Position numbers and translations under genes: made by a program
Part shown: positions 20,111 to 47,335 of the stretch, piece after piece
Numbering within the stretch: position 1 is the stretch's first letter
Layout of the letters: each line of letters starts with the position of its first letter
The notes under the pieces: model-generated
The model's input: the letters and a program-made list of their open reading frames with translations, nothing else
Told to the model about the DNA's origin: nothing
Database searches by the model: none
Source of the DNA: a virus
IMG/VR virus record: IMGVR_UViG_3300032523_001138
Span: 1-52,976 of that record
DNA: 52,976 bases
Reading direction: 5' to 3' (one strand)

Positions 20111-22660
20111 GTGGCTGACCTCGACCTGTCTCTCGCTGCTGCACTACTGGCAGGCGGAATGCCCAGCGTGCGCTTCCTTTCAGAGAACGGCTTTCGCGCC
20201 GAGCTGCTCGAAGGGGACGGCAGGATTGTCTACGACTTTACGTTCGACTTTCTCAAGACTTACAACACGTTTCCGTCGACGTCGATTGTCGAGCGTGAAA
20301 CTGGTGTGCTCGTCCCCGCTCCGACTGACCCGCTCCCATATCTTGTCGACGCCGCCTACGACCGGAAACTCCACGGGCTCCTTCACGCTGGAGTGAAAGA
20401 CCTCATCGGAATCCTCGACAAAGGAGAGCCTGCGAAAGGCCGAGCAGCGGTCGAAGACCTGCTGCGTACGATGCGGAAGCTCGACACTCGCTCCGCTCTC
20501 GTCGAGAGCATGCCCGCCCTCGGCGACAAGGTCATCGCCTACTACGAGAAGATCAAGCGCGGCGAGCGCGGCATCCAGACCCCGTGGCCGACTATTAACG
20601 ACTCGACGCTGGGGCTCTGGCCGGAAGACTTGGTGCTGCTCGTCGCCCGCATGGGCATCGGCAAGTGTCTGGTTCGCACTTCGACGTGCATTGATCCTGT
20701 GACCGGGATGGAACACACTATCGAGGATATCTACTCGAACGACGGGGTACAGTTCACACCTTCGTGGAGCAAAGAAGACGGAATACATCCGCGCAAGCTC
20801 GTGGCCAAGATCAACACAGGTCGCAAGCCGTGCAGACGAATCACGTTTTCGTCGGGGCGGACGCTAGATGCAGGGCTTGAGCACCCCTTGTTGACGGTGG
20901 AAGGTTGGAACCGAATCGAGAACATGCGCGTGGGGATGACCGCTGCGCTCGCGTCGCGCATGCCCTTCCCCTCACAGCCTGTTCACCTCCCGCCGGAGGA
21001 GGTTTTCATTCTCTCCCTGCTGTTGGCTGAGGGTTCTTACACCGGCCACCACACAGGGTTCACGTCGTCAGACGACACCATCGTCCACAGGGCGAAAGAG
21101 GCGGCGACGCTCTACGACACGCATCTGAAGTTTCAGGGCAAGTACGCCTACGACTTCATCCGAAACAATCCGTCAGGATCGAATGGAGTGCTCGCGCTGC
21201 TACGCAAGCACGGGATCGAGAACACTCTCGCGAAACACAAGAGCATCCCTTCCGCGATATACCAGCTCTCGGCACCGCAGCTCTCTGACTTCTTGTCGAC
21301 CTTCTGGATGAGCGACGGCTACGTCGACGGCACCGGCCCTTGTATGGTGCTGGCGTCAGAACGTATGCTCCGACAGATACAGCACCTGCTGCTTCGCTTC
21401 GGCATCCAGTCTTCAATTGATCCGAAACCAAGCAAGCTGAACGGCAAGGTGTTCGATGCTTGGAGGCTCCGTGTGTACGCCCAAGATTGGGAGACGTTTC
21501 AAGGTGCCATCCCGCTGTGGTCCGAGAAGGCTAAACGTCTGCAAGAGCTGACCGCGAAGGGTCGCAATCCCAACATCGGATTTCCTCGCGTCTCTGACGC
21601 ATTCGTGCAGGAGATGCGCGCAGTGGTCGCGTCGAACCCGAAGCAGCTTTGTCGGGTCGGCGACCTCTTGGGTCGCAGCAGTCCGTTCCAATTCAAAAAT
21701 ATCTTCGGGCAAAGCGGTACCGGCTCCCTGATCACGCGGCCCTTTCAGGCTTTCTGCGAAGTTCATGGAGTTGCCGACAAGTACCGCTGGATATGGGACT
21801 CCAACATTTTCTGGGACGTCATCGAACGAATCGACGACATCGGCGAGCAAGACACCTACGACTTCACCGTAGACACGACCGAGTGCTTCGTGGCGGACGA
21901 CGTCATCGTTCACAACAGCTGGACGGCGATCCTCCTCGCTGGCACCGCGTGGGAGCAAGGCAAGAAGGTTCTGGTGGCGACGACCGAGATGTCGAAGGAG
22001 ACAATGGTCCAGCGCTACCTCGCCACGAAGTTCCGCCTACCCTACGGCGACTTCCGCAAAGGCAAGCTCGACTCGTTCACCGAGAAGCGGTTCCGCGACG
22101 GCGTCGCCTCGATTGCCAACAGTCCGAACCTGAACATCGTTGGCGGAGACTTCGACTTCAGCATGGACACGTTCGCAGGCATCTGCATGGACGAGAAACC
22201 CGACCTCGTCATCGTCGACGGTGCGTACCTGCTCAAGGTTCCTGGCATCACGCGCACTGAACGCGCGGCCAACGTCTTCGACGAGCTGAAGCGCATCGCG
22301 AAACGAAGCAAGGCTGCTGTCGTTGCGACGATGCAGTTCAACCGTGAGGTGAAGGTCAACCAAGCCAAGACGGTGCAGGCGGACAGCATCGCAATGACCG
22401 ACGTCGCAGGGTGGAACGCCGATCTCATCTTCGGGCTCATCCAGACCGAGGAGATGAAAAAGAACCGCCGCATGACTTTCAAGCCTCTCAAGGTGCGAGA
22501 AGGCGAGAGCGAAGAGATCGAGTGCAATTGGGACTTCGAGCGGATGGACTTTTCCGAGATACCGAAGGCAAACTTCGGCAACAACCCCGCCTTCTCCCCG
22601 TCAGGTGTTCCGAGTGGCCCCGACGCGGCTGCCGACGATTTCATCGGCGATTTGTTCTAG
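20111..22660 (+). CDS. dnaB: replicative DNA helicase DnaB with intein in the P-loop
   Basis: An 849-residue precursor starting at GTG 20111, directly after the loader stop. The exteins together (432 residues) are a DnaB-family helicase with a short N-terminal domain and RecA-like core. The core Walker A reads ARMGIGK then, after the intein, SWTAILLAG, so it becomes GxGIGKS after splicing. Walker B is KPDLVIVDGAYLLKV and the late motif is VVATMQFNREVK, then DLIFGL. The intein occupies residues 186-602 and interrupts the P-loop between Lys and Ser, so no ATPase forms without splicing. The mature helicase unwinds DNA at the phage fork with the DnaC-like loader and the primase encoded downstream. 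Confidence 0.92.
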   Translation: MADLDLSLAAALLAGGMPSVRFLSENGFRAELLEGDGRIVYDFTFDFLKTYNTFPSTSIVERETGVLVPAPTDPLPYLVDAAYDRKLHGLLHAGVKDLIGILDKGEPAKGRAAVEDLLRTMRKLDTRSALVESMPALGDKVIAYYEKIKRGERGIQTPWPTINDSTLGLWPEDLVLLVARMGIGKCLVRTSTCIDPVTGMEHTIEDIYSNDGVQFTPSWSKEDGIHPRKLVAKINTGRKPCRRITFSSGRTLDAGLEHPLLTVEGWNRIENMRVGMTAALASRMPFPSQPVHLPPEEVFILSLLLAEGSYTGHHTGFTSSDDTIVHRAKEAATLYDTHLKFQGKYAYDFIRNNPSGSNGVLALLRKHGIENTLAKHKSIPSAIYQLSAPQLSDFLSTFWMSDGYVDGTGPCMVLASERMLRQIQHLLLRFGIQSSIDPKPSKLNGKVFDAWRLRVYAQDWETFQGAIPLWSEKAKRLQELTAKGRNPNIGFPRVSDAFVQEMRAVVASNPKQLCRVGDLLGRSSPFQFKNIFGQSGTGSLITRPFQAFCEVHGVADKYRWIWDSNIFWDVIERIDDIGEQDTYDFTVDTTECFVADDVIVHNSWTAILLAGTAWEQGKKVLVATTEMSKETMVQRYLATKFRLPYGDFRKGKLDSFTEKRFRDGVASIANSPNLNIVGGDFDFSMDTFAGICMDEKPDLVIVDGAYLLKVPGITRTERAANVFDELKRIAKRSKAAVVATMQFNREVKVNQAKTVQADSIAMTDVAGWNADLIFGLIQTEEMKKNRRMTFKPLKVREGESEEIECNWDFERMDFSEIPKANFGNNPAFSPSGVPSGPDAAADDFIGDLF
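20666..21916 (+). mobile_element. DnaB intein with LAGLIDADG endonuclease
   Basis: 417 residues from Cys1 (CLVRTSTCIDPVTG) to the terminal VIVHN, with Ser as the +1 extein residue. Splicing blocks visible: A at the start, B-like AGLEHPLLTVEGW (the usual TxxH has lost its Thr), F/G DTYDFTVDTTECFVADDVIVHN. The central in-frame homing endonuclease has two LAGLIDADG-type helices, FILSLLLAEGS and FLSTFWMSDGYVD, each keeping an acidic residue, so it could be active. Confidence 0.92.
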
Positions 22661-25100: not shown

Positions 25101-25538
25101 ATGACGCTCGAAAAAATCTGCTTCAAGTGCCATGTCCTCAAACCGATTGACGCTTACTACACGCACCCCCGGATGGCCGATGGCCATCTGGGGAAGTGCA
25201 AGGAGTGTACGAAACGAGATGCTCGCGCCCGTTTTGAGGAGGAGCGCCCGTACATTGCTCGATACGAGCGTGAGCGCGCCCAGACTCCTGAACGCAAACT
25301 GAAAATGGCTGAGTACCAACGACGGCGACGTGAACGCGACCCTGAAAAGTACAAGGCACGGACGGCCCTCGGAAACGCTCTGCGCGACGGTCGAGTCATC
25401 CGAGGTCCATGTGGGGTCTGCGGGACGACGTTGCGGGTGCAAGGACACCACCACGACTACTCCAAGGCGCTCGACGTCCGCTGGCTCTGTTTCAAGCATC
25501 ATCGAGAGGACGAGCATGGTCAGATCACCAACCCGTAG
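25101..25538 (+). CDS. free-standing HNH-type endonuclease with zinc finger
   Basis: A 145-residue protein. The N-terminal zinc motif KICFKCHVLKPIDAYY and LGKCKECTKRDAR matches the endonuclease VII/HNH-associated pattern (KxCxxCxxxKPxxxFY ... CKxC). The C-terminus carries CGVCGTTLRVQGHHHDYSK followed by RWLCFKHHREDEHG, the usual catalytic part of small phage HNH proteins (VxxHHxDYSKPLxVxWLCxxHH). It is likely a stand-alone homing or nicking endonuclease. It is close to, but not inside, the intein-containing helicase gene; whether it targets that intein site is unknown. Confidence 0.8.
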   Translation: MTLEKICFKCHVLKPIDAYYTHPRMADGHLGKCKECTKRDARARFEEERPYIARYERERAQTPERKLKMAEYQRRRRERDPEKYKARTALGNALRDGRVIRGPCGVCGTTLRVQGHHHDYSKALDVRWLCFKHHREDEHGQITNP

Positions 25539-25544
25539 AGACTC

Positions 25545-25784
25545 ATGCGAGTGATTGCTGTCCGTCTCCATCGCGGCCTGAACAAGATGGACGTGCTCGT
25601 TGAGTTTTCCGGTGGGCACCTCCGCATCCCCATCTCGTGGATGACCCGCCTTCCCACCGACCTGCCTCCGGCGGACTGGTACGCGTCCGTCCGTCGCGAG
25701 GTCGAGTTACACCGTGAGCGGACCTCAGCGTCGCAAGCCTCTGTGCGAGCACTGAACAACTTTATGGCGGGTCGACTGAAATGA
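25545..25784 (+). CDS. small hypothetical protein
   Basis: A 79-residue protein from ATG 25545. N-terminal beta strands (RVIAVRLHRGLNKMDVLVEF) with LRIPISWMTRLPTDLP, then a helical, basic C-terminus. This looks like a DUF2442-type or small beta-alpha protein but no family is claimed. Its stop overlaps the helicase start (ATGA at 25781), indicating coupling. Confidence 0.6.
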   Translation: MRVIAVRLHRGLNKMDVLVEFSGGHLRIPISWMTRLPTDLPPADWYASVRREVELHRERTSASQASVRALNNFMAGRLK

Positions 25785-28228
25785 AGATTGTCGTGGACGC
25801 CTACGCATGGCTCCCTGTGTCCGAGCTGACTCACATGCAGCGAAGCGCGCTCAAGGCAACCCTCACCGTCACGCCCCGAGCCTTCCCTGGGTTCCCGGGC
25901 CCTCCTCCGTCGCCGATCCATCTCTACGCCGAGAAGCCCGACTTCCTCGGTGTACCTCGGTCGTTCTTCATGACGCACAAGAAGGACCATCACGAGATTA
26001 TCGACATGACGACGTCGGGGCGTGCGGACCTGTGGGATGGACCATTCACTTTTACAGGTGATCTGCGACCCTCACAACAAGCTGCAATCGACAAGCTCAA
26101 AACCACCTTCAAACTACCATTCAACGGTGGTATTATAAAAGCGGCCCCTGGGTGGGGTAAAACGATATGTTCATGTGCCGCTATGGCACTACTAAATGTA
26201 CCAACGTTGGTTGTGGTTCATAAAGAGTTTTTGCTCAATCAATGGCGTGACCGCATCACACAGTTCCTCCCGGGCGCGAAGGTCGGCATCGTCCAGCAGG
26301 AACGATGTGAGTTTCGAGGCTACTCCGTTGCTATCGCAATGGTACACAGCTTGGTTGGCGACCGTGACTACGGTACAGACTTTTGGGAGTGGCCCGGACT
26401 GGTTGTTGTAGACGAGTGTTTCCCTGCCGGAACAAAGATTGCGTTGGCAGATGGGGCCTCAAAACCGATTGATCAGGTTGTCGTGGGGGACTCCGTCCTC
26501 AGTGCTTATGGCGAAGACACCGTGACGGATGTGATGCGTCGAGATATTCCGGTGGCGCGTATGCGCTTGGTTCGTTTCTCAGACGGTTCGGAGCAAGTCT
26601 GCACGCAAGACCATCCTTTCCTGTGCGTGGATCACGGCTGGACCCCTGCTCAAGACCTGATGGGCAAACTGGTGTTGACTGCGGCGGGTTGCTTCGATAC
26701 CATGTCTTCACATGGCACCAAAGTACAAGACTCCTCTGACGTGCGAGATATGCCTCAAACCGTCCTCAGTCCGAACAGGGCGTCGATATTGCTCTCAAGC
26801 CTGTACGGGGGAGTCCAAGCGGCGGTTGGGTCCTTATCCTCTGTGCGAGTGGTGTGGGAAGGCTCCGGTGAAGCGAGCCAGATCTCTTTTTTGCGGAGCT
26901 GTTTGTCGAGTGAATGCCGCAACGGTCCAAGCTCAACTGCGGGGTCCGGAGATGTCTCTTCGGGTTCAGGAGTGGCACAGGCTGAACCCGAACATCGCTT
27001 TGGAGGCTTCGGAGCGAATGCGTGCGCGCAACCCTATGCACTCGGAGACAACCCGGAAGAAGGTGTCCATAACGCTCCGTGCTCTGGGACATCGACCTCC
27101 AGTCCAAGGGGGGAACGGTCGCGGGCTGACCGTCCCGCAGCAGATTTTGCGGGAACGCTTAGGATCCGCGTGGGTGACCGAGTTTGTAATTCCAACACAC
27201 CAGCCTCGGAACAACCCTGCTCGGCTCCCGGGTCACTACAAGATCGACCTGGCTCAGCCGAATCACCTCCTTGCGGTGGAGCTGGACGGCACGAGTCACG
27301 GATCGATGCTGGGGCAGGAACGGGATCGCAAGAAAGACAACTGGCTGCACTCTTGCGGGTGGACCGTGTTTCGATTCCCGAACAAGCGGATCTTGACCGA
27401 CTTGGAATCAGTGTGCGCTCAGATACAGGGGAAGTTGCAGTCTTCAACCTCTCCGTGAAGAAGCACCCCTCCTACATTCTGCACGCTTCAAAAGCTGTGG
27501 TGCATAATTGTCATCGGCTGGGTGCAGAATCGTGGGGTAAAGCAGCTACTAAGTTCAATGCTAGATGGCGGTTGGGTGTCAGTGCAACACCACGTCGCAA
27601 AGATGGTGCGGAGCCTGTGTTCTTCCACCAGATCGGCCCGGTGATCTACCAGTCCGAAGAACAGCGTCTGAAGCCAAAGGTGCGCCGCGTGTGGACGGAC
27701 TTCAAGCTCGTTCAGACCCCGACGCTCAACCCAGAAATCATCTCGAAGAACGTCCTCCTCAAGTTCATGTGCGGCAACACCGCCCGCAACAAGCTGATCG
27801 TCGAGCAGATTGTGCTCGCTGTCGTCGCAGGGCGAAAGCCCATCGTCCTCTCTGAACGCCTCAACCATCTTGACCTGATGGAGGCTCTCTTCAAGCAGCA
27901 GTGGAAGACAGGGCAAACAGTTCCGGTCCCGTCGACGGGCTTCTACGTCGGCGGCATGAAGGAGGAGGAGCTAGAGGCCGCAGCGGAAGCGCAGGTGATA
28001 TTCGCGACTCGCCAGTTTGCCGAAGAGGGCCTCGACATCCCTGCTCTGGACACCATCTTCCTGACGGTGCCTTTCTCGGACGTAGACCAAGCCGTCGGGC
28101 GCATTCTGCGACCGTTTGACGGCAAGAAAGACCCTGTGGTGGTGGACATCATCGACCCGAAAGTCAGCCTATGTGTCAAGTCGGCGACCTACCGAGATCG
28201 GTTCTACAAAACGAAAGGGTGGGAGTGA
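25781..28228 (+). CDS. SF2 DNA helicase (UvsW-like) with intein in the DExH box
   Basis: An 815-residue precursor. The N-extein has a Q-like motif FTGDLRPSQQAAIDKL, Walker A AAPGWGKTICSC, and motif Ia LVVVHKEFLLNQW, then GLVVVDE. The C-extein resumes CHRLGAESWGK, so the spliced motif II reads VVVDECH. Further motifs are WRLGVSATPRRKDGAE (III), PIVLSERLNHLDLM (IV), IFATRQFAEEGLDIPALDTI (V) and VGRILRPFDGKKDPVVVDII (VI). This is the layout of UvsW/RecQ-like and XPB-like phage helicases. The extein total is 451 residues. The intein (residues 213-576) splits the catalytic DExH box, so activity needs splicing. Unusually, the intein's endonuclease is a nested gene in another frame. Confidence 0.9.
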   Translation: MKIVVDAYAWLPVSELTHMQRSALKATLTVTPRAFPGFPGPPPSPIHLYAEKPDFLGVPRSFFMTHKKDHHEIIDMTTSGRADLWDGPFTFTGDLRPSQQAAIDKLKTTFKLPFNGGIIKAAPGWGKTICSCAAMALLNVPTLVVVHKEFLLNQWRDRITQFLPGAKVGIVQQERCEFRGYSVAIAMVHSLVGDRDYGTDFWEWPGLVVVDECFPAGTKIALADGASKPIDQVVVGDSVLSAYGEDTVTDVMRRDIPVARMRLVRFSDGSEQVCTQDHPFLCVDHGWTPAQDLMGKLVLTAAGCFDTMSSHGTKVQDSSDVRDMPQTVLSPNRASILLSSLYGGVQAAVGSLSSVRVVWEGSGEASQISFLRSCLSSECRNGPSSTAGSGDVSSGSGVAQAEPEHRFGGFGANACAQPYALGDNPEEGVHNAPCSGTSTSSPRGERSRADRPAADFAGTLRIRVGDRVCNSNTPASEQPCSAPGSLQDRPGSAESPPCGGAGRHESRIDAGAGTGSQERQLAALLRVDRVSIPEQADLDRLGISVRSDTGEVAVFNLSVKKHPSYILHASKAVVHNCHRLGAESWGKAATKFNARWRLGVSATPRRKDGAEPVFFHQIGPVIYQSEEQRLKPKVRRVWTDFKLVQTPTLNPEIISKNVLLKFMCGNTARNKLIVEQIVLAVVAGRKPIVLSERLNHLDLMEALFKQQWKTGQTVPVPSTGFYVGGMKEEELEAAAEAQVIFATRQFAEEGLDIPALDTIFLTVPFSDVDQAVGRILRPFDGKKDPVVVDIIDPKVSLCVKSATYRDRFYKTKGWE
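26417..27508 (+). mobile_element. helicase intein whose endonuclease is encoded out of frame
   Basis: 364 residues in the host frame, from Cys1 (CFPAGTKIALADGAS) to KAVVHN, +1 residue Cys. Block A, block B (QVCTQDHPFLC, intact TxxH) and blocks F/G (VAVFNLSVKKHPSYILHASK, then AVVHN) are all in the host frame. Between them about 240 codons of the host frame are a Ser/Gly/Ala/Pro/Arg-rich linker with no domain character. The same bases read in the +1 frame encode a complete zinc-finger nuclease (26712-27458). Confidence 0.9.
26712..27458 (+). CDS. nested homing endonuclease gene (zinc fingers, NUMOD3-like, PD-(D/E)XK/DUF559-like)
   Basis: A 248-residue protein encoded entirely inside the helicase intein in the +1 frame. 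It starts with two treble-clef zinc motifs (LTCEICLKPSS, RYCSQACTG; PLCEWCGKAPVK, SLFCGAVCR). A NUMOD3-like stretch follows (MHSETTRKKVSITLRALG). The C-terminal nuclease domain resembles Vsr/DUF559 and EDxHD-type homing endonucleases: TEFVIPTHQ, HYKIDLAQPNHLLAVELDG, then SHGSMLG, DRKKDNWLHSCGWTVFRFPN. It begins at ATG 26712 without a strong ribosome site. It ends within the start of the intein's C-terminal splicing block. It presumably cuts intein-less alleles of the helicase gene. Confidence 0.85.
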   Translation: MAPKYKTPLTCEICLKPSSVRTGRRYCSQACTGESKRRLGPYPLCEWCGKAPVKRARSLFCGAVCRVNAATVQAQLRGPEMSLRVQEWHRLNPNIALEASERMRARNPMHSETTRKKVSITLRALGHRPPVQGGNGRGLTVPQQILRERLGSAWVTEFVIPTHQPRNNPARLPGHYKIDLAQPNHLLAVELDGTSHGSMLGQERDRKKDNWLHSCGWTVFRFPNKRILTDLESVCAQIQGKLQSSTSP

Positions 28229-28233
28229 GCGGC

Positions 28234-28283
28234 TGGAAGTCCTGTTACGTCGGTGGAAGCGCAACGATCACCCGGAGTCCCAT
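28234..28283 (+). other. short intergenic leader with weak TGTTAC element
   Basis: Between the helicase and the next gene; contains CCTGTTACGTCGG (28242-28254), a partial match to the STGTTACTS motif in the right orientation, and CCCGGAG close to the start codon. Confidence 0.3.
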
Positions 28284-28290
28284 ATGGTCC
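28280..28290 (+). promoter_or_regulatory. CCRTATGGTCC motif copy 5
   Basis: CCATATGGTCC; the start codon of the following gene (28284) lies inside the motif, so a bound protein or an RNA structure could block initiation. Confidence 0.5.
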
Positions 28291-29030
28291 CAGCCCCTTC
28301 CCCCCTCGCTGTTCCCGCTGCCATCGATAGCGCAGTGGACGCCGCCGTCGCCGACATCATCGCCGCCATCGCAGCCGTCAACGCGCAGGTGGCTGCCGCC
28401 GAAGCGGATCTGCAAAAAGCTCCCCCGGCTCCCCCTCCTCCGGAGGAACCCGTCGCGCAGCTCCCCCTCATCCCCTTCACCGTCAAGGGTGTCCTCGTGA
28501 CCACTGAGACGCACCTCTTCGAGAACGGCGTCCCCCTACTGACGCCGACAGGGCGTGCGCGGCTCAAGCCGGAAGCGCGCAAGGCCAAAAAGACATCGCA
28601 GAAAGCCGCGCCTGCCGCGCCTGCCAAGGACATCGCCACCGTAGCGGAAGCATCTCAGCAGGTGTCGATTCAGCCGGTTGTCGTTGGGACGCAGGCTCCT
28701 CCGGTCATCAAGGAGACCGTGAAGTCGATGACGGCTACGGTGACCACGGTCTACGGGAATATCGGTCTCCCCGCGTCCAAGGACGAGGAGATCGCCGTCC
28801 GCACCTTCGTCACCAACCCCGCGATGGTCGAGATCGGCTACGGCTTGACGCTCAACATCGGGAACTACGAGAGCGCTCGCATCGACGTCCGCGTCTCGCT
28901 GCCCTGCTACGTCGAGGAGACCGACCAAGCCTTCGCCTTCGCGAAGAAGTGGACCGAAGAGCGCATCCAGACCGAGGTCAAGGAGATCCGCAAGATCGCC
29001 TCTGGCACCAAAACCCACACACCGTTCTGA
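28284..29030 (+). CDS. hypothetical phage protein upstream of recombinase
   Basis: A 248-residue protein from ATG 28284; upstream in-frame ATGs overlap the helicase gene and are rejected. Residues 1-60 are Ala/Pro-rich and helical (AAIAAVNAQVAAAEADLQKA). The conserved-looking part is C-terminal: VEIGYGLTLNIGNYESARID, VRVSLPCYVEETDQAFAFAK and WTEERIQTEVKEI. This resembles a phage family with GxTxNxGNYESxRxxVxxxxP, found next to recombination genes, of unknown function. It is 12 bases upstream of the RecA-like gene and probably cotranscribed. Confidence 0.65.
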   Translation: MVPAPSPLAVPAAIDSAVDAAVADIIAAIAAVNAQVAAAEADLQKAPPAPPPPEEPVAQLPLIPFTVKGVLVTTETHLFENGVPLLTPTGRARLKPEARKAKKTSQKAAPAAPAKDIATVAEASQQVSIQPVVVGTQAPPVIKETVKSMTATVTTVYGNIGLPASKDEEIAVRTFVTNPAMVEIGYGLTLNIGNYESARIDVRVSLPCYVEETDQAFAFAKKWTEERIQTEVKEIRKIASGTKTHTPF

Positions 29031-29042
29031 ACAGAGGCATAC

Positions 29043-31331
29043 ATGGCATCGAAGAAGAAAAAGCCCGACGACGAAGTACCCGCTCCTGCGGACGCAACTT
29101 CTACGGCTGTCGACGAGGCTGTGCCCGAAACGACTGCGGACGTGATCTCAACTCGTATCAAGTCCGGCTACGACTCCAAGTCGCAGATGGGCGCGCTGCT
29201 CTCCTCAGACATCATTGCGGCGACCCTGAAAACTTACGGGAAGAAAAGTCTCATCCAAGGCTCCGAGATCAAGGCACGCAAGGTCCGCCGCATCCCGACA
29301 GGCATCTTCCCTCTTGACTACGCGCTAGAGGGTGGGTGGGCGCAAGGCGGTGTCCACACCCTGATAGGTCACAAAAGTAGCTGCAAGACCACCGTCCTCT
29401 ACAAGACTATCGGCGAGGCGCAGAAAATGTGCGCTGAGTGCTGGCAGTACATGGACCGCTGCATCTGCAAGCGCCCACGAGAGGCGGTCACCGCGTACAT
29501 CGACGTCGAAGGCGCGCTCGACTCCGCATGGGCAAGTCGCTTCTGTGACCTCGACAAAGTCGTAATCTCCGTCCCTGAGTACGCAGAGCAGACGCTGTCG
29601 ATCGGCGAGGCGCTGCTGCGCTCTGGCAAGGTCGACATGCTGATGATCGACTCCATCGCATTCCTCACCCCTGCCAAGGAGATTGAGGAAGCCATCGAGA
29701 AAGACCTGATGGGCCAGCAGGCGCGTGTGCTCGGCAAGGGCGTGCGGAAGTTCACCGCCGCGCTCAACGCCGTGATGACCGACACCGGCAAGAGACCGAC
29801 GGTCTTCTTCACCAACCAGATACGGATGAAGATCGGCGTTATGTTTGGTTGCTTCCACTATGACACGCGGGTGACTTTGGCAGACGGGGGTTCTGAGAAA
29901 ATCGGGAAGATCGTGAATCAGAAACTTCCAGTTGAAGTGCTATCGGTTGATCCGGCAACGGGTGTATGTGCTCCTGCACGGGTGACTGGTTGGCACAACA
30001 ATGGCCCCGCAGATTATTTTTTGCAGTTTGTTGTGGATGGTGTGGGCGGCAACGGACGCGCTTCCTTTGGGGTCACGCCGAACCACCACGTTTTTGTACC
30101 TGCCGGTACGGGCTGGGTAGAGCGCGAAGCAGGCACACTGTCTCCCGGAGACCTTGTCGGTCACAAGGCTTTGATCCAGTTCAGCCATGTGCAGCGACAG
30201 ATTGCCTTGGGATCCATCCTTGGGGATGGATCCCTTCGCAGAGCAGGGCGACACTATTCCCAACTACGGTTTGGTCAAGGAAAGGACCAACTAGATTATG
30301 CTCGCTGGAAAAGATCTTTGATGGGGGATTGTGTGTCTTGGGAAGGACCAGTCGGAAACAACGGTTGGGGTTTTGACTGCCGACCTTCTGCGGACATGAC
30401 CGCTGTTCTTCATGAGGCGTACTCTACCGACTCAGAATCGGGGAGGATTTTATCTAAAACAGTGCTGAACGAGCTTACTTTGTTTGGGTTAGCGGTGTGG
30501 TACATGGATGATGGTTGCTTTTCAGGTTCATACGAGCGCTGGGGGCACGGGAAAGTTGAAATCAGCGTGAAGTCGTACTCGAATGACGAGATAGCACTGC
30601 TTGCGGATTGTTTGGAACATCTGGGTGTTGGTCGGCCAACTATCACGACACAGAAATGTCTTTTGTGGTCAGGGGAACGCACGCAACATCTCCACAGACA
30701 GATCGCTAAATATATCCCTCCGTGCATGGAGCACAAACTACACCCCCGACTGCGAGGACAATTCTGCGAGCCCGAAAGCGCTCACCAAGACGACCGCTTT
30801 GTGTTGGTTCCTGTGACCGTGCAAGCGATTTACGAGAAACCTCAGTCCGGCCACCAAGATCGCTACGATCTAACTGTGGACGGGCACCATACTTACCTTG
30901 TGGATGGTGTGGCGGTTCACAACTCGCCCGAAACGGCACCCGGCGGGCTGGCCCCCGGCTTTATGTCGTGGACCGAAATGAAAATGAAGACCGGCAAGTT
31001 CAAGATGGACGACCTCGGTGAGCGCCCGCTGTACGCTGACTTTGGTTTCTCGCTCGACAAATCCAAGTCAAGCACGGCGAAAGTCGGTTACGACTACCGC
31101 ATGATGTTGTCGGACGCAGAGAGCAAGTCTCTGGGCGACTTCTACGACGAGGACTTCATACTCGATCACGCAGAGCGTAGCGGGCTCGTTACTGGTGGAG
31201 GAACGTCATGGAAGATTCTCGGGGAGACCTTCGGCAAGAAGTCGGATATCGAAAAACGGCTGGTGGCGGACCCGATCTTCAAGCGGATGTTGACGGACAT
31301 TCTGCTGAAGTCGGTCCAACAGGGAGCCTGA
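29043..31331 (+). CDS. RecA/UvsX-like recombinase with intein
   Basis: A 762-residue precursor, ATG 29043 after AGAGG. The exteins (404 residues) are a RecA-type recombinase: IPTGIFPLDYALEGGWAQGG, P-loop GHKSSCKT (109-116), DVEGALDSAWA, Walker B VDMLMIDSIAFL, and TVFFTNQIRMKIGVMFG, which continues after the intein as SPETAPGGLA (family: NQxRxKxGVMFGxPExTxGG). Cys114 replaces the usual Gly of GKT, as UvsX-type proteins also tolerate. An inserted CAECWQYMDRCICKR looks like a small zinc site not found in bacterial RecA. The intein (residues 270-627) sits just before the DNA-binding loop L2 region. It would drive strand exchange with the SSBs and the UvsW-like helicase. Confidence 0.9.
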   Translation: MASKKKKPDDEVPAPADATSTAVDEAVPETTADVISTRIKSGYDSKSQMGALLSSDIIAATLKTYGKKSLIQGSEIKARKVRRIPTGIFPLDYALEGGWAQGGVHTLIGHKSSCKTTVLYKTIGEAQKMCAECWQYMDRCICKRPREAVTAYIDVEGALDSAWASRFCDLDKVVISVPEYAEQTLSIGEALLRSGKVDMLMIDSIAFLTPAKEIEEAIEKDLMGQQARVLGKGVRKFTAALNAVMTDTGKRPTVFFTNQIRMKIGVMFGCFHYDTRVTLADGGSEKIGKIVNQKLPVEVLSVDPATGVCAPARVTGWHNNGPADYFLQFVVDGVGGNGRASFGVTPNHHVFVPAGTGWVEREAGTLSPGDLVGHKALIQFSHVQRQIALGSILGDGSLRRAGRHYSQLRFGQGKDQLDYARWKRSLMGDCVSWEGPVGNNGWGFDCRPSADMTAVLHEAYSTDSESGRILSKTVLNELTLFGLAVWYMDDGCFSGSYERWGHGKVEISVKSYSNDEIALLADCLEHLGVGRPTITTQKCLLWSGERTQHLHRQIAKYIPPCMEHKLHPRLRGQFCEPESAHQDDRFVLVPVTVQAIYEKPQSGHQDRYDLTVDGHHTYLVDGVAVHNSPETAPGGLAPGFMSWTEMKMKTGKFKMDDLGERPLYADFGFSLDKSKSSTAKVGYDYRMMLSDAESKSLGDFYDEDFILDHAERSGLVTGGGTSWKILGETFGKKSDIEKRLVADPIFKRMLTDILLKSVQQGA
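29850..30923 (+). mobile_element. RecA intein with LAGLIDADG endonuclease
   Basis: 358 residues from Cys1 (CFHYDTRVTLADGGSEKIGK) to DGVAVHN, +1 residue Ser. Block B is FGVTPNHHVFV (TxxH intact); block F is YDLTVDGHHTYLVDGVAVHN. The in-frame endonuclease has QIALGSILGDGSL and GLAVWYMDDGCF, the two LAGLIDADG-type motifs with intact acidic residues. Confidence 0.92.
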
Positions 31332-35514: not shown

Positions 35515-37677
35515 GTGAATTCACCAGACACCAAGCCAGGTCGCATCGATCTCCGGCACATCCCGATTGACCTCATCCACCCCAACGCATGGAATCCCCA
35601 GGCGCAGGACGAGATCACCTTCCAGCGGCTCGTCGATGAGATTCGCGACGTGGGGTTCATTGACCCGCTCGAAGTGGTCCCGATGGACGACGGCACCTAC
35701 CGCATCATCGGCGGGGAGCACCGCTGGCAGGCTGCCAAGATCGTCGGTTTGGATGAGCTGCCCTGCGCAGTCCTCTCAGATGCCAAGTGGCAAGACGAAG
35801 ATCTGTGCTTCCCTGCCGGAACTCGTATTGAGACCCCTCAAGGTGGAGTCTCGATCGAGGTGGTGGAACCCGGTACTGAAGTTTTTGCAGCGGACGGAAC
35901 GGTGACGAGGTCAGTCGGCCTCATCGCACGAGAGTATGAAGGCGAGATGGTGGCGATCTACGCTGAGGGGCAAATCCAGCCTCTGGTTGCGACGTCCGAC
36001 CACCCTGTGTTTGTTCGACGCGGAGGCGAGATCATCATTGTCCGTGCCACCGACATTCAAGATTCTGATGCCTTGGTGGCTCCAACACTCCCGTGTCTTC
36101 TCGACGGATCTCTCCAAGGGAACCTGTCTGAAAAGGCACCATACGCATCGCCTTCAGTCCGTAGTCATGCGCTTGATGATGCCCAAGGAGACTGTAGTGT
36201 CCGAGGGTGCGCCAACTCTGACGTGTATGCTCACGGCATCTGTCGTCGCTGTTACGGGCGGTGGTACTATCGGTCCAAGATATCAAAGAGGGAGAACTTC
36301 CCCGACATTGCAAGTGGGACGCTGCTCTACAACGGCGTCGCCAGGGAGGTCTGCTCAATCGAGAGTTGCGCGAATCTTGTGCATGGAGACAAACTGTGCG
36401 GTAAGCACTATGGGGCTCGTCGACGACTCGGCTCCGAGTGGGAGCGACTCCATCGCGAAAGATTTCCCGGAGTTCCGGACACAGAGATCACACCCGATGT
36501 CGCGTGGGCGATTGGCTTCATGGTCGCCGAGGCACACGCCGGAGAGGCCGACGTGTCTGTTGTTCAGGTGGGAGCACGTCACCGTCTAGAACGTCTTCAA
36601 CGCTTCTGGGAACGACAAGGCGCACGAACCACGATCTACGATCGAGAGTCCCACTCCGAATTCGTCGCTTTCGGCATCGCAGCCAGCGAGTGGTTGTCAT
36701 CGACAATTGGGCACAGGTGTGCAGAGAAACGCTTTCCCCTCCAGATTCTTTTTCACAAAAATATGGAGATTCGTAAGCAAGCCCTCCGAGGATACTGCGA
36801 GGGGGACGGCCACAACATTCCGAAAGACACAACCAAGGAAAACTTCCACGAATCTTGGTGTGCCGCCACAACGTCAGAAGAGTTGGCAAACCAGCTGGGG
36901 TGGCTCCTCTACTCGTTGGGATACAGCTACGGTGTGGGTCATAAATCGCCGGAAGGAAACCGAAACCGCGTCTGGTCGTTGAGCTGGACTGCGTCGATTC
37001 CGGAACAGCGAGGTCCAGCAACGCAGCGCGCCAGCGGACATACTTGGTGGAAGCGTGTGAAGCACGTCGAGCGGTGGAATGATCATCTGACCGTTTACAA
37101 TCTTCAGACGGAACCAGCAGGGACTTTCGTTGCGAACGGTGTTGCGGTCCACAACTGCAAGTTCGTCACCGTTCGATTGAACGTGTTGAAGGGGAAAATG
37201 GACCCCGAAAAGTTCGCCAAGCTCTACGGGGAGATGGCGGAGAAGTACGGCGCCGAGGCTCTCCAGCAGCTGATGGGCTACGCCGACACGAAGGGTTTCC
37301 AGAAGATCGTCGGCGACGTGAAGCGCGGGCTGAAGAAGTCGCTGCCCAAGGAGCTGCAGGACGAGTTCGATGAGAAGGCGAAGGAGGCCAAGACGATCGA
37401 AGACCTCTCCAACATCCTCCAGCACCTGTTCGCCAAGCACGGGGACACGGTCAATCTGTCGTTCATGGTATTCTCGTTCGGGAAGCAAGAGCACGTCTAT
37501 TGTCAGATGAATCGCAATACCAAGAAGGCGCTCGACAAGGTGCTGGCCTATTGCAAGCACACCAATGAGGACATCAATGACTTTCTCGGACCCATCATCG
37601 AGGAGGCTGGCAAGCAGGCGCTGAGTGCTCTGGACAAATCAAAAGTGGCTGCTGCGAAAGTATCGCTAGACTCTTGA
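35515..37677 (+). CDS. ParB/sulfiredoxin-fold protein with intein
   Basis: A 720-residue precursor from GTG 35515. The N-extein is a ParB N-terminal nuclease-like domain: IDLIHPNAWNPQAQ, LVDEIRDVGFIDPLEVVP and YRIIGGEHRWQAAKIVG, the ParB box GGEHRWQAA, then PCAVLSDAKWQDEDL. After the intein the C-extein continues CKFVTVRLNVLKGKMDPEKF and is helical, with MNRNTKKALDKVL. The extein total is 270 residues. Phage ParB-like proteins may bind DNA, act as CTP-dependent clamps or as nucleases; some help small terminase function. The intein (residues 98-547) falls after the ParB box. The operon also holds two small unknown genes upstream. Confidence 0.85.
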   Translation: MNSPDTKPGRIDLRHIPIDLIHPNAWNPQAQDEITFQRLVDEIRDVGFIDPLEVVPMDDGTYRIIGGEHRWQAAKIVGLDELPCAVLSDAKWQDEDLCFPAGTRIETPQGGVSIEVVEPGTEVFAADGTVTRSVGLIAREYEGEMVAIYAEGQIQPLVATSDHPVFVRRGGEIIIVRATDIQDSDALVAPTLPCLLDGSLQGNLSEKAPYASPSVRSHALDDAQGDCSVRGCANSDVYAHGICRRCYGRWYYRSKISKRENFPDIASGTLLYNGVAREVCSIESCANLVHGDKLCGKHYGARRRLGSEWERLHRERFPGVPDTEITPDVAWAIGFMVAEAHAGEADVSVVQVGARHRLERLQRFWERQGARTTIYDRESHSEFVAFGIAASEWLSSTIGHRCAEKRFPLQILFHKNMEIRKQALRGYCEGDGHNIPKDTTKENFHESWCAATTSEELANQLGWLLYSLGYSYGVGHKSPEGNRNRVWSLSWTASIPEQRGPATQRASGHTWWKRVKHVERWNDHLTVYNLQTEPAGTFVANGVAVHNCKFVTVRLNVLKGKMDPEKFAKLYGEMAEKYGAEALQQLMGYADTKGFQKIVGDVKRGLKKSLPKELQDEFDEKAKEAKTIEDLSNILQHLFAKHGDTVNLSFMVFSFGKQEHVYCQMNRNTKKALDKVLAYCKHTNEDINDFLGPIIEEAGKQALSALDKSKVAAAKVSLDS
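35806..37155 (+). mobile_element. ParB intein with divergent LAGLIDADG endonuclease and zinc-like inserts
   Basis: 450 residues from Cys1 (CFPAGTRIETPQGGVSIEVV) to NGVAVHN, +1 residue Cys. Block B is LVATSDHPVFV. It contains two similar cysteine motifs (CSVRGCANSDVYAHGICRRC and CSIESCANLVHGDKLCGKH), a duplicated zinc finger. Endonuclease helices WAIGFMVAEAH and ALRGYCEGDGH are diverged LAGLIDADG motifs. Block F: LTVYNLQTEPAGTFVANGV. Confidence 0.9.
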
Positions 37678-44716: not shown

Positions 44717-47335
44717 TTGCGCCAGTACACCGTCGTCACCGACGAGCACTTGCTCGCCGGTATTGCTCGCGAAATTGAGAGTGCCGACGTCATCGGGATC
44801 GACCTTGAGACAGCGAAGATCGGCGGAGGCGGCAGCTTCGACCCCCTGACGGGCCGTGTGCGCCTCTGCTCGGTGAACACAGGGCAGGCTCTCTACATCA
44901 TCGACCTCTACAAGACGCAGACGCTGGGGCCAGTTGTGGACGCTTTCAGGCGCACAAAGGGGGTGGTCGTCGGCCAGAACATGAAGTTCGACCAGAAGTG
45001 GCTGCTCTGGCACTTCGACCTTGAGCTGGTGAAGCTGTTCGACACCTTCCGCGCGTCGAGCATCATCTACGCGGGCCTCCCTGGGTTGAAGCACGACCTG
45101 TGGAGCCTCTACAAGCGCGAGCTGGGCGAAGCAGCGGCTGTCGAAGACCTCGGCGGCTCCGATTGGGACGGGACACTGACGCAGAAGCAGCTCGACTACG
45201 CAGCGGACGACATCGACAAGCTCCCGCGCCTCCGCGACGTGCTCAAGCCAAAGATCGTTCAGGCAGGGCTGGTGAAGATCGCTCAGCTGGAGTTCAACGC
45301 GGTCCTCCCCGAAGCCTGCATGGAGCTGAACGGCTTCTTCCTCGACAAAGAAATGTGGCTCACACGAACGGCGTCAGACAGGGCGCAGATGGAACGGCTG
45401 CGAGCGAGTTTGCTCGCCAAGCTTCCGAACCCGTCGAACCAGCTGGGGCTCTTCGGGAGTGCGCCCTTCAATCTCGAATCCCCCGACCAGATTCTCACGT
45501 CGCTCTGCATGTTGGGCGTGAAGCAGAAGTGGAAAGACCCTGAAACAGGGCTGACGAAGACGGTTCCCATCATGGACACCAAGGAGATGACGCTGGCGAT
45601 GGAGGCCGACCGCTGGCCCATCCTCAAGGAGTTCATCGAGTACCGAGGGTACGCGCAGGCGGTGAAGTCATTCGGCGAGGAGTACCTGAAACACATCCAC
45701 GCGACGTCGGGACGCGTCCACTCGTCGTACTTCCCGTTCACGGACACGGGACGGTATGCTAATCGTTCGCCAAACCTACAACAAGTCCCTCGCGGGAGCG
45801 CGTTTCGGGATTGCTTTAGGGCCGCTGAAGGTCGCTCTCTGGCCATCGCGGACTGGAGCAACATCGAGATGCGGATCGTTGCTGAGGTCTCCAAAGACCC
45901 CGTCCTCATCAAGGTATTCCAAGACGACCGCGATGCCCACTACGCGACGGCTTCCCTCGTCACTGGTAAACCTGAGAGTGAAGTGATAAAAGCCGAAAGA
46001 CAGCAAGCAAAGCCAGTGAACTTCGGGTTCTGCATCGCAGAAGGTCAGCGCGTGTTGACACAGGAAGGGTTGGTCCCGATCGAGTCGGTTCGAGATTGGC
46101 ACGTCGTATGGGATGGAGTAGAATGGGTGACCCACGACGGTCTGATCTACCGAGGGCTGCAGCCTGTTCAGACCCACGATGGCCTGACCACTACGCCCGA
46201 CCACGAGGTCTTCACTGATGACGGACACCGGATTTCAATGCGGGAAGCAGCATCCCCGCTTCGTCCCAGACGCCTTGCTGTTGGCGCAATTGGCATTGAT
46301 CCCGTTGGGTACATTGCGTTTGACCGGCAAGGTCGAACAGCGGCTCCGCAGCCGGAGGTACGTCGAGGCGACCTGCGACTGCTGCAACCAAGCCCGCTGG
46401 ATTCTGGTCGACAACATACGGGCGCGGAAGACGACCAACTGCACCTGCCACGGAAAGTACAACGATCCCCGATCCGAGACCTTGGGCGAACGCTTCGACT
46501 CTATGGTGCAGCGTTGTCGTCGGGATACGCACGTCTCGTCGCACAACTACAAGGGACGAGGGATTCAGGTCTTGTTCCTGTCGAGGGAGCAGTTCATTCG
46601 TTGGGCTCTGGAGACCTACCCGGACTCCGACTTCAAAGGGCTGGACTTCGACCGAACGAACAACGACGGGCACTACGAGCCATCGAACCTTCGGCTGGTG
46701 ACGCGCTCGGAAAACTTGAAGAACCGCTCCCGCTCGCCCACGTCTACGACCTCCTGAACGCGGGCCCCCGGCATCGCTTCACAGTGGAGGGGAAGGTCGT
46801 GAGCAACTGCTACGGGATGCAAGCGGCTCGCATGGTCCTCTACGCGAAGCAGGGCTATGGCGTGAACATGACGGAGGCGACGGCGCGAACCTTCCGCAGA
46901 AAATTCTTCGAGGCATACGAGGGGATTGCCAGCTGGCACCGAGGGGCACTGGACTCAGGGAAGCGTCAACGTGAGACCCGCACCGTCTGGGGACGCAGAC
47001 GCATCATCAAGGATGAGAAGGCGCACAACGAGTTCTTAAATTCCCCAATTCAGGGCACAGGCGCTGACGGCCTCAAGGTCGCCATCCGCAACGTCTACGA
47101 CCGTCTGAAAAAGCTCGCGGGCCGGACGCCCCTTCTCGGCAAGGGGGCGAAGTGCGCGCCGGTCCATATGGTCCACGACGAGATCATCGTCGAACACGAC
47201 GATGATCCTGAGCTGGAAATTCACGTTCGGCGGGAGCTGCACGATGGGATGATCGAGGGCATTGCCCCAATGCTCCCATCCGTTCCGACCCGTGCAGAGG
47301 TAGCGGGAGGGAAAAGCTGGGGAAGCAAAACCTGA
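44717..47335 (+). CDS. polA: DNA polymerase I (family A) with intein in the O-helix motif
   Basis: An 872-residue precursor. TTG 44717 is the start: GGGAG lies six bases upstream and no ATG in frame precedes the conserved exonuclease domain. The N-terminus is a DEDD 3'-5' exonuclease (VIGIDLETAK, VVVGQNMKFDQKWLLWH, LDYAADDI). The polymerase domain has FTDTGRYANRSPNLQQVPRG, AIADWSNIEMRI (motif A), KAERQQAKPVNFGF then after the intein CYGMQAARM (motif B/O-helix), and HMVHDEIIVEH (motif C). The extein is 613 residues, with no 5'-3' exonuclease. The intein (residues 439-697) cuts motif B between NFGF and YGM. It is the phage replicative polymerase. A second gene is nested inside its intein. Confidence 0.93.
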   Translation: MRQYTVVTDEHLLAGIAREIESADVIGIDLETAKIGGGGSFDPLTGRVRLCSVNTGQALYIIDLYKTQTLGPVVDAFRRTKGVVVGQNMKFDQKWLLWHFDLELVKLFDTFRASSIIYAGLPGLKHDLWSLYKRELGEAAAVEDLGGSDWDGTLTQKQLDYAADDIDKLPRLRDVLKPKIVQAGLVKIAQLEFNAVLPEACMELNGFFLDKEMWLTRTASDRAQMERLRASLLAKLPNPSNQLGLFGSAPFNLESPDQILTSLCMLGVKQKWKDPETGLTKTVPIMDTKEMTLAMEADRWPILKEFIEYRGYAQAVKSFGEEYLKHIHATSGRVHSSYFPFTDTGRYANRSPNLQQVPRGSAFRDCFRAAEGRSLAIADWSNIEMRIVAEVSKDPVLIKVFQDDRDAHYATASLVTGKPESEVIKAERQQAKPVNFGFCIAEGQRVLTQEGLVPIESVRDWHVVWDGVEWVTHDGLIYRGLQPVQTHDGLTTTPDHEVFTDDGHRISMREAASPLRPRRLAVGAIGIDPVGYIAFDRQGRTAAPQPEVRRGDLRLLQPSPLDSGRQHTGAEDDQLHLPRKVQRSPIRDLGRTLRLYGAALSSGYARLVAQLQGTRDSGLVPVEGAVHSLGSGDLPGLRLQRAGLRPNEQRRALRAIEPSAGDALGKLEEPLPLAHVYDLLNAGPRHRFTVEGKVVSNCYGMQAARMVLYAKQGYGVNMTEATARTFRRKFFEAYEGIASWHRGALDSGKRQRETRTVWGRRRIIKDEKAHNEFLNSPIQGTGADGLKVAIRNVYDRLKKLAGRTPLLGKGAKCAPVHMVHDEIIVEHDDDPELEIHVRRELHDGMIEGIAPMLPSVPTRAEVAGGKSWGSKT
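46031..46807 (+). mobile_element. PolA intein whose endonuclease is encoded out of frame
   Basis: 259 residues in the host frame from Cys1 (CIAEGQRVLTQEGLVPIESV) to GKVVSN, +1 residue Cys. Block B is GLTTTPDHEVFTDDG (TxxH intact); block F/G is HVYDLLNAGPRHRFTVEGKV, then VSN, so the penultimate His is replaced by Ser. About 150 host-frame codons between them are Arg/Pro/Gly/Leu-rich without domain character. The same bases in the +1 frame encode a complete HNH-type protein (46218-46757). Confidence 0.9.
46218..46757 (+). CDS. nested HNH-type homing endonuclease gene inside PolA intein
   Basis: A 179-residue protein encoded in the +1 frame inside the PolA intein. ATG 46218 has GAGGT (46205-46209) eight bases upstream. 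It contains a cysteine pair region (EATCDCCNQARWILVDNIRA, TTNCTCHG), then RFDSMVQRCRRDTHVSSHNY and KGRGIQVL. It ends with GLDFDRTNNDGHYEPSNLRL followed by VTRSENLKNR, the HNH/AP2-associated pattern (DRxxNxGHYxPxNxRxxxxxEQxxNR) of phage homing endonucleases. The whole gene lies between intein blocks B and F. It presumably cuts intein-free polymerase genes and so spreads the intein. Confidence 0.85.
   Translation: MTDTGFQCGKQHPRFVPDALLLAQLALIPLGTLRLTGKVEQRLRSRRYVEATCDCCNQARWILVDNIRARKTTNCTCHGKYNDPRSETLGERFDSMVQRCRRDTHVSSHNYKGRGIQVLFLSREQFIRWALETYPDSDFKGLDFDRTNNDGHYEPSNLRLVTRSENLKNRSRSPTSTTS
47164..47174 (+). promoter_or_regulatory. CCRTATGGTCC motif copy 8
   Basis: CCATATGGTCC inside the polymerase motif C codons (VHMVHDE), where protein constraint may also explain it. 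Confidence 0.35.

Follow-up and report, generated by a model that had tools for sequence, protein, structure and literature searches.

The DNA analysed here, the IMG/VR virus record IMGVR_UViG_3300032523_001138 (52,976 nucleotides, referred to below as the window), carries a phage helicase gene that contains an intein, and the central part of this intein overlaps a second gene, read in the +1 frame, for a putative homing endonuclease. The positions and frames of both elements, as given in a preliminary description made from the letters of the window, proved right, with the host open reading frame (ORF) running unbroken through the intein (Table 1). The helicase ORF matches the DNA helicase phrog_16 (expectation value, E, 3e-40) and ResIII (E 2.5e-20), and the intein junctions (GLVVVDE/CFPAGT ... 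VVHN/CHRLG, slashes marking the splice points) place the insertion within the DECH motif of Walker B (DE/C...HN/CH).

AlphaFold (AF2) modelling with 64 relatives in the alignment predicts a high-confidence Hint fold formed by the N-terminal (IntN, residues 1-98) and C-terminal (IntC, residues 311-364) parts of the intein, with a predicted local distance difference test score (pLDDT) in IntN of about 96-98 for residues 1-90 and 81 for residues 91-100. The best match of the model in the PDB is the gp41-1 split intein (6qaz; Foldseek E 1.2e-5). Pfam Intein_splicing is matched by 63 of the 64 related intein frames, and the splicing residues C1, H66 (block B) and N364 are invariant across these 64 inteins. 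The nucleophile C1, the block B His, the terminal His-Asn and, in this helicase, Cys at +1 (VVHN/C) accompany the Hint fold, and intein-free alleles exist, as expected of an intein. Given the intact motifs and the predicted fold, the intein probably splices out of the helicase and restores the DECH box. The low-complexity linker between the two parts, put at about 240 codons in the preliminary description, is indeed present and predicted to be disordered for most of its length (mostly pLDDT <55, with a few short helical stretches), but it extends over about 212 codons only (residues 99-310).

The 248-residue product of the nested gene gave an AF2 model with a mean pLDDT of 89.6. Residues 174-242 match Pfam DUF559 (E 2e-13), as do all 64 related nested proteins, and D179, E190, D192, H196, D205 and K208 are invariant within the catalytic domain. 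The model of this domain resembles the homing endonuclease I-Bth0305I (3r3p; template modelling score, TM, on the target 0.76-0.77) and more weakly Vsr (1vsr; 0.43), and a sequence profile also matches the nuclease to 3r3p (E 5.5e-4); the catalytic domain therefore shows a Vsr-like/I-Bth0305I fold in which acidic and His residues are conserved. Two four-cysteine motifs stand near the N-terminus, as had been described, and C61 and C65 of the second show conservation of at least 90% in 64 relatives, whereas the NUMOD3-like segment also proposed there lacks Pfam support. From sequence and model together, the nested product would be a zinc-finger plus I-Bth0305I-like homing nuclease with putative site-specific cleavage.

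Table 1. Positions in the window of the helicase gene, its intein, the overlapping nuclease gene and the polymerase intein.
Feature	Positions	Strand	Description	Basis
Helicase precursor	25781..28228	+	ResIII/DECH-type phage gene; 815 codons, unbroken across the intein	single ORF
N-extein	25781..26416	+	terminates ...GLVVVDE (Walker B)	
Intein	26417..27508	+	364 codons, Cys1 to His-Asn, Cys+1	motifs and Hint fold
IntN	26417..26710	+	residues 1-98; C1, block B CTQDHPF	AF2
Intein-frame linker	26711..27346	+	residues 99-310; shares DNA with the nuclease gene	AF2
IntC	27347..27508	+	residues 311-364; VFNLSVKKHPSYIL...VVHN	AF2, pLDDT >95
Closest upstream stop in nuclease frame	26676..26678	+	TGA; frame open from 26679	sequence
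Nested nuclease	26712..27458	+	248 amino acids, ATG start, TGA stop; +1 frame of the intein	ORF, Pfam, AF2
Zinc-finger-like motifs	26742..26906	+	two four-cysteine motifs, C11/C14/C27/C31 and C45/C48/C61/C65	read from sequence
Catalytic domain of the nuclease	27228..27446	+	DUF559/Vsr-like	Pfam, conservation, structure matches
Dual-coding zone	27347..27458	+	about 37 codons	AF2 of both products, codon bias
Polymerase intein	46031..46807	+	NFGF/CIAEG...VVSN/CYG, in DNA polymerase A gene 44717-47335	
Nuclease ORF in polymerase intein	46218..46757	+	HNH-type, 179 amino acids, +1 frame of the intein	

The same arrangement was found in many relatives. A tblastn search with the nested protein matched 41 phage records, most of them annotated as helicase or left unnamed, and further loci came from alignment-based searches of IMG/VR and GTDB contigs; a single-protein query gave no matches against the viral contigs, while the alignment query did match. 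In all eight annotated phage loci that were examined, among them Vibrio phages including CP-T1, Corynebacterium phi673 and Pseudomonas MR14, the helicase ORF is open, carries a Walker B intein and has the nuclease in its +1 frame. This combination of an open intein frame and a nuclease in the +1 phase is shared by 212 loci in total, from phages and bacterial contigs (149 of them nonredundant at <70% identity). In annotated phage genomes, mostly the helicase or polymerase alone is recorded at such loci, the nuclease having been missed. Relatives of this architecture occur nested in this way, split, or free-standing, and no in-frame fusion of nuclease and intein was found among them in phage genomes, IMG/VR or GTDB contigs. 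Of the two outcomes named beforehand as refuting the preliminary description, a relative fused in frame and an unconserved nested frame, neither was found, the nested frame being the conserved one; its argument that a sequencing frameshift could not explain the overlap is likewise borne out by the conserved phase in the 149 nonredundant loci. An internal stop in the nuclease is seen in L029 only; L100, L068 and L106 were considered as broken nucleases and rejected, their stops falling outside the nuclease proper.

Stops in the outer frame are avoided completely. As a null model, the codons of the nested gene were shuffled among synonymous positions and the stops arising in the intein or helicase frame were counted. 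For the gene in the window about 9 stops are expected and none is observed, with none of 5000 shuffles being stop-free; the outer frame is therefore kept open, in agreement with the earlier claim that it has stayed free of stops across the nested gene. The same shuffling predicts 612 intein-frame stops for 79 loci and 1344 for the 149 nonredundant loci, against none observed in either set, and an open frame by chance was thereby ruled out. Non-nested or free-standing relatives, as well as DUF559 genes elsewhere, contain about as many stops as expected, with no clear deficit. At the level of codons, those that could end in T or C and are followed by a codon starting with AA, AG or GA end in T in 0 of 5382 cases in the 149 loci versus 37% elsewhere, and the YKxD motif has TAC for its Tyr in 96 of 96 cases. 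The geometry of the code makes this phase freely permissive, since every possible intein-frame stop in the +1 phase requires T at the third position of a nuclease codon and an exchange of NNT for NNC is always synonymous. No dipeptide forces an outer-frame stop in the +1 phase, while MI, MM, MT, MN and MK do so in the +2 phase, and such a pair is present in 137 of the 149 nucleases. That only the +1 phase is workable was rejected as a general rule, as four polymerase inteins hold an HNH nuclease in +2; the +1 phase is permissive rather than an absolute requirement.

Comparison with the nearest relative (L010) indicates which frame is conserved: amino acid identity is 65% in the nested frame and 45% when this DNA is read in the intein frame, and the first, second and third positions of the nested codons carry 56, 53 and 117 differences. 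Added up over 34 pairs, the differences at these positions amount to 1005/918/2041, while the helicase-only DNA just upstream shows 1440/1004/2605 by helicase codon position, with the peak at position 3. The periodicity of substitution thus changes from the third helicase position upstream to the third nuclease position inside the nested region; as it favours the nested frame, the linker is to a large extent a shadow of the nuclease, needing only to remain free of stops.

The preliminary description had placed the nuclease opposite the linker, which holds for most of the gene, but its last approximately 37 codons overlap the structured IntC. The nuclease gene stops a median of 41 nucleotides short of the intein end, so near that the nuclease C-terminus and IntC share DNA. 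In this dual-coding zone, both the C-terminus of the nuclease (CGWTVFRFPN...) and the first strands of IntC (RVDRVSIPE...) are predicted to be structured, the commonest residues among the relatives being LGWxVLRFxN in the nuclease and RVESVEI in the intein. For the invariant Gly of the GW pair, 109 of 126 loci use GGG, which makes up 33% of the other Gly codons in these genes; this choice gives Val in the intein frame, and the four free-standing copies located next to helicases have GGA or GGT at this position. This codon bias points to selection acting on the amino acids of both frames in the dual-coding zone.

Several loci bear on mobility. The helicases of L122-L124, which are close relatives, lack the intein and read DE/CHRTAAESW at the insertion point, their 3' flanks being 92-98% identical to those of the intein-bearing L010. 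The unit is hosted by DExH helicases, SNF2-type helicases, DnaX/clamp loaders and one terminase, and its junction is nearly always DE/C or DE/S. Between a helicase (L173) and a terminase (L087) host, the splicing domains share 50% and the nucleases 57% identity, compared with 10% for the exteins. One locus (L067, 2528-5014) carries a split intein at DEAHS/C with the nuclease in the same +1 phase; its IntN frame stops inside the nuclease gene and its IntC frame opens before the nuclease end. Free-standing copies of the nuclease are located directly 5' of intein-less helicases in L036, L076, L210 and L273. The empty sites, the split version and the free-standing copies suggest, from comparison of these loci, a mobile unit linked to the split inteins of “fractured” genes, and a path from free-standing through nested to split is plausible, although the direction is our reading. 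A clamp-loader intein (L146, 2717-4858) has exactly one intein-frame stop within the nuclease overlap and is possibly a nested intein just turning split.

We consider it very probable that the intein in the helicase gene is mobile and that its homing endonuclease, rather than forming a domain of the intein, is encoded by a gene of its own, read in the +1 frame of the intein centre. This proposal builds on the arrangement, its conservation, the avoidance of stops, the dual-coding constraint and the empty sites, all established by sequence comparison, and from these we infer splicing, independent translation, cleavage with homing, and the evolutionary direction. Translation in the helicase frame would yield a precursor consisting of helicase-N, IntN, disordered linker, IntC and helicase-C, in which the two Hint halves would fold around the linker, excise the intein and restore the DECH box. 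Other ribosomes would initiate within the same mRNA, with ATG 26712 as the likeliest start, and produce the zinc-finger plus I-Bth0305I/Vsr-like nuclease, which in turn would cleave the intein-free Walker B coding sequence, so that repair copies in the whole unit; this homing step is proposed because of the empty and filled sites and the nuclease family. Selection, as the sequences show, maintains the amino acids of the nuclease together with a stop-free intein frame and, in the last approximately 37 codons, the residues of both proteins.

Some observations weigh against this proposal. A clear start signal for the nuclease at 26712 was looked for and none was found; there is no Shine-Dalgarno-like sequence at this ATG, nor at the corresponding ATG of L010. 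The structure match of the nuclease is moderate (Foldseek E 2.9e-3). The distances among inteins, nucleases and exteins are all intercorrelated, and the case for co-mobility therefore rests on particular pairs and on the empty sites. The locus sets with zero stops were selected for an open +1 frame, and seven related loci are not open: besides L146 with its one stop, L036/L209, L067, L076, L175, L210 and L273 have 9-30 outer-frame stops and are split or free-standing, so that stop counts over all related loci form a bimodal distribution.

The main alternative concerns how the nuclease is made, namely as a C-terminal extension of helicase-N/IntN through programmed +1 ribosomal frameshifting. 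All DUF559 cases share the +1 phase, both frames are open briefly before the nuclease domain, and ATG 26712 is without a Shine-Dalgarno-like site. Against it, a nuclease-frame stop lies 0-2 codons ahead of the ATG in L004, L033, L061 and L074 and leaves almost no room for shifting; Shine-Dalgarno-like sites (<= -5 kcal/mol) precede 42% of nested starts versus 16% of control ATGs (p 1.7e-6); and polymerase inteins also use +2. We therefore favour internal initiation, most likely at ATG 26712, and regard frameshifting as unlikely. It could also be that only the nuclease is functional, with splicing dead and codon bias accounting for the open intein frame: apart from what the nuclease imposes, no sequence is conserved in the linker, and +1 stops are in general mildly depleted in ordinary genes of the window. 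Yet the free-standing relatives are without a clear deficit, the splicing residues C1, H66 and N364 have stayed invariant, the GGG bias retains a Val of IntC, and a helicase whose DECH box stayed interrupted by the insert would presumably be inactive, all of which leaves this explanation little credit.

Introns frequently carry nucleases of this kind, and the nuclease ORF might accordingly sit in a self-splicing intron within the intein that is removed from the RNA. Across 25500-28500, however, no Rfam match up to E 1 and no group I or group II ribozyme core was found, and avoidance of outer-frame stops, which an intron would not need, is absolute; we hold this to be highly improbable. An open outer frame around a displaced middle would likewise result from two compensating indels in an in-frame fused nuclease or from assembly frameshifts, but the same phase recurs in the 149 nonredundant loci, including the finished isolate genomes of CP-T1, phi673, MR14 and Vibrio phages, no in-frame relative was found, and chance as the cause of a stop-free displaced frame is excluded, so that this explanation is close to negligible.

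Separate from the helicase intein, the polymerase intein of the window (Table 1) also contains a nuclease ORF in its +1 frame. The product, an HNH-type nuclease unrelated to the DUF559 nuclease, is matched by 715 phage records (best E 7e-11). With 0 outer-frame stops versus 3.2 expected and 2% of shuffles stop-free, the evidence for stop avoidance is weaker than in the helicase case. A similar ORF in the +1 frame of a polymerase intein is present in two IMG/VR relatives, APSE-1 (P46), Shewanella SFCi1, Caulobacter GB2A and a Gardnerella phage, while EBPR siphovirus 2, Vibrio phage 97.13, MR14 and a Salmonella phage carry the HNH nuclease in +2. Out-of-frame intein nucleases are thus not limited to one family. 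Pseudomonas phage MR14 (L305, L008) has both kinds, a DUF559 nuclease in the helicase intein (+1) and an HNH-like one in the polymerase intein (+2).

The phage of the window is unusually rich in inteins. Four further regions (20111-22660, 29043-31331, 35515-37677 and 48148-52974), with genes for a DnaB-like helicase, RecA/UvsX and a ParB-like protein and, where the window ends, a long ORF, contain conventional inteins with in-frame LAGLIDADG or HNH domains, the long ORF having at least three inteins and the start of a fourth. Long ORFs over the ParB-like, DnaB-like, RecA and terminase-like inteins (35936-36589, 21649-22260, 29966-30376 and 51051-51413) gave no Pfam match. A short distance 5' of the intein-bearing helicase gene is a free-standing endonuclease gene (25101-25538; phrog_2340, E 3e-32).

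Like the canonical bifunctional inteins, as found in the RecA/UvsX, DnaB-like and ParB-like proteins of this phage, the helicase intein holds a homing nuclease between blocks B and F; whereas theirs is an in-frame LAGLIDADG or HNH domain, the nuclease here and in all 149 nested relatives has its own gene in the +1 frame. Dassa et al. (2009) reportedly described fractured genes, in which the two halves of a gp41-1-type split intein flank a gene for a Vsr-like homing endonuclease. The helicase case resembles them in that the intein fold is nearest to gp41-1 and a nuclease of Vsr-like kind lies between IntN and IntC, but its helicase is unsplit, one ORF predicted to splice in cis, and a split was seen only in L067. 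In APSE-1, P46 lies in +1 within the polymerase intein region (P45/P46), like the polymerase case of this phage; it is of HNH type, unlike the DUF559 helicase case, and the deposited record lists P46 without a product.

The closest precedent among published cases that we found is the ShiLan domain or Pacc40 insertion, an out-of-frame HNH nuclease in a phage methylase with a stop-free host frame (Arsenault, Gosselin, Gogarten 2025, PMC11855218). Both are mobile inserts at a conserved protein site with the nuclease in another frame of an uninterrupted host gene. The ShiLan insert has no detectable splicing domain, is thought to be retained in the protein, and has its nuclease placed in the third frame (PMC11855218), whereas the helicase insert has a complete Hint intein around a DUF559/Vsr-like nuclease, with IntC sharing its DNA. 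Our literature searches revealed no report of a splicing intein that harbours its nuclease out of frame, although a preprint on actinophage inteins (10.1101/2025.01.02.630785) that refers to a “non-canonical architecture” may overlap. Should that survey already cover nucleases placed out of frame alongside splicing domains, the architecture would in part have been described before, but the evidence for conservation and dual coding would still add to it.

These examples demonstrate that two functions usually fused in one polypeptide of a mobile intein can be separated and yet be maintained on the same DNA. Any protein can be recoded in the +1 phase without stopping the outer frame, and the approximately 150 loci provide natural long overlapping gene pairs in which selection on each partner is measurable. 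We suggest, as a somewhat better than even proposition, that out-of-frame nucleases constitute a third recurrent architecture of mobile inteins, which arose independently from at least two families (DUF559/Vsr-like at Walker B, HNH in polymerases), with free-standing nucleases beside the target gene as the source and with loss of the overlap by stops leading to split inteins of the gp41-1 kind. The helicase intein and its relatives would thereby offer a concrete route from a free-standing nuclease to a mobile intein and on to a split intein.

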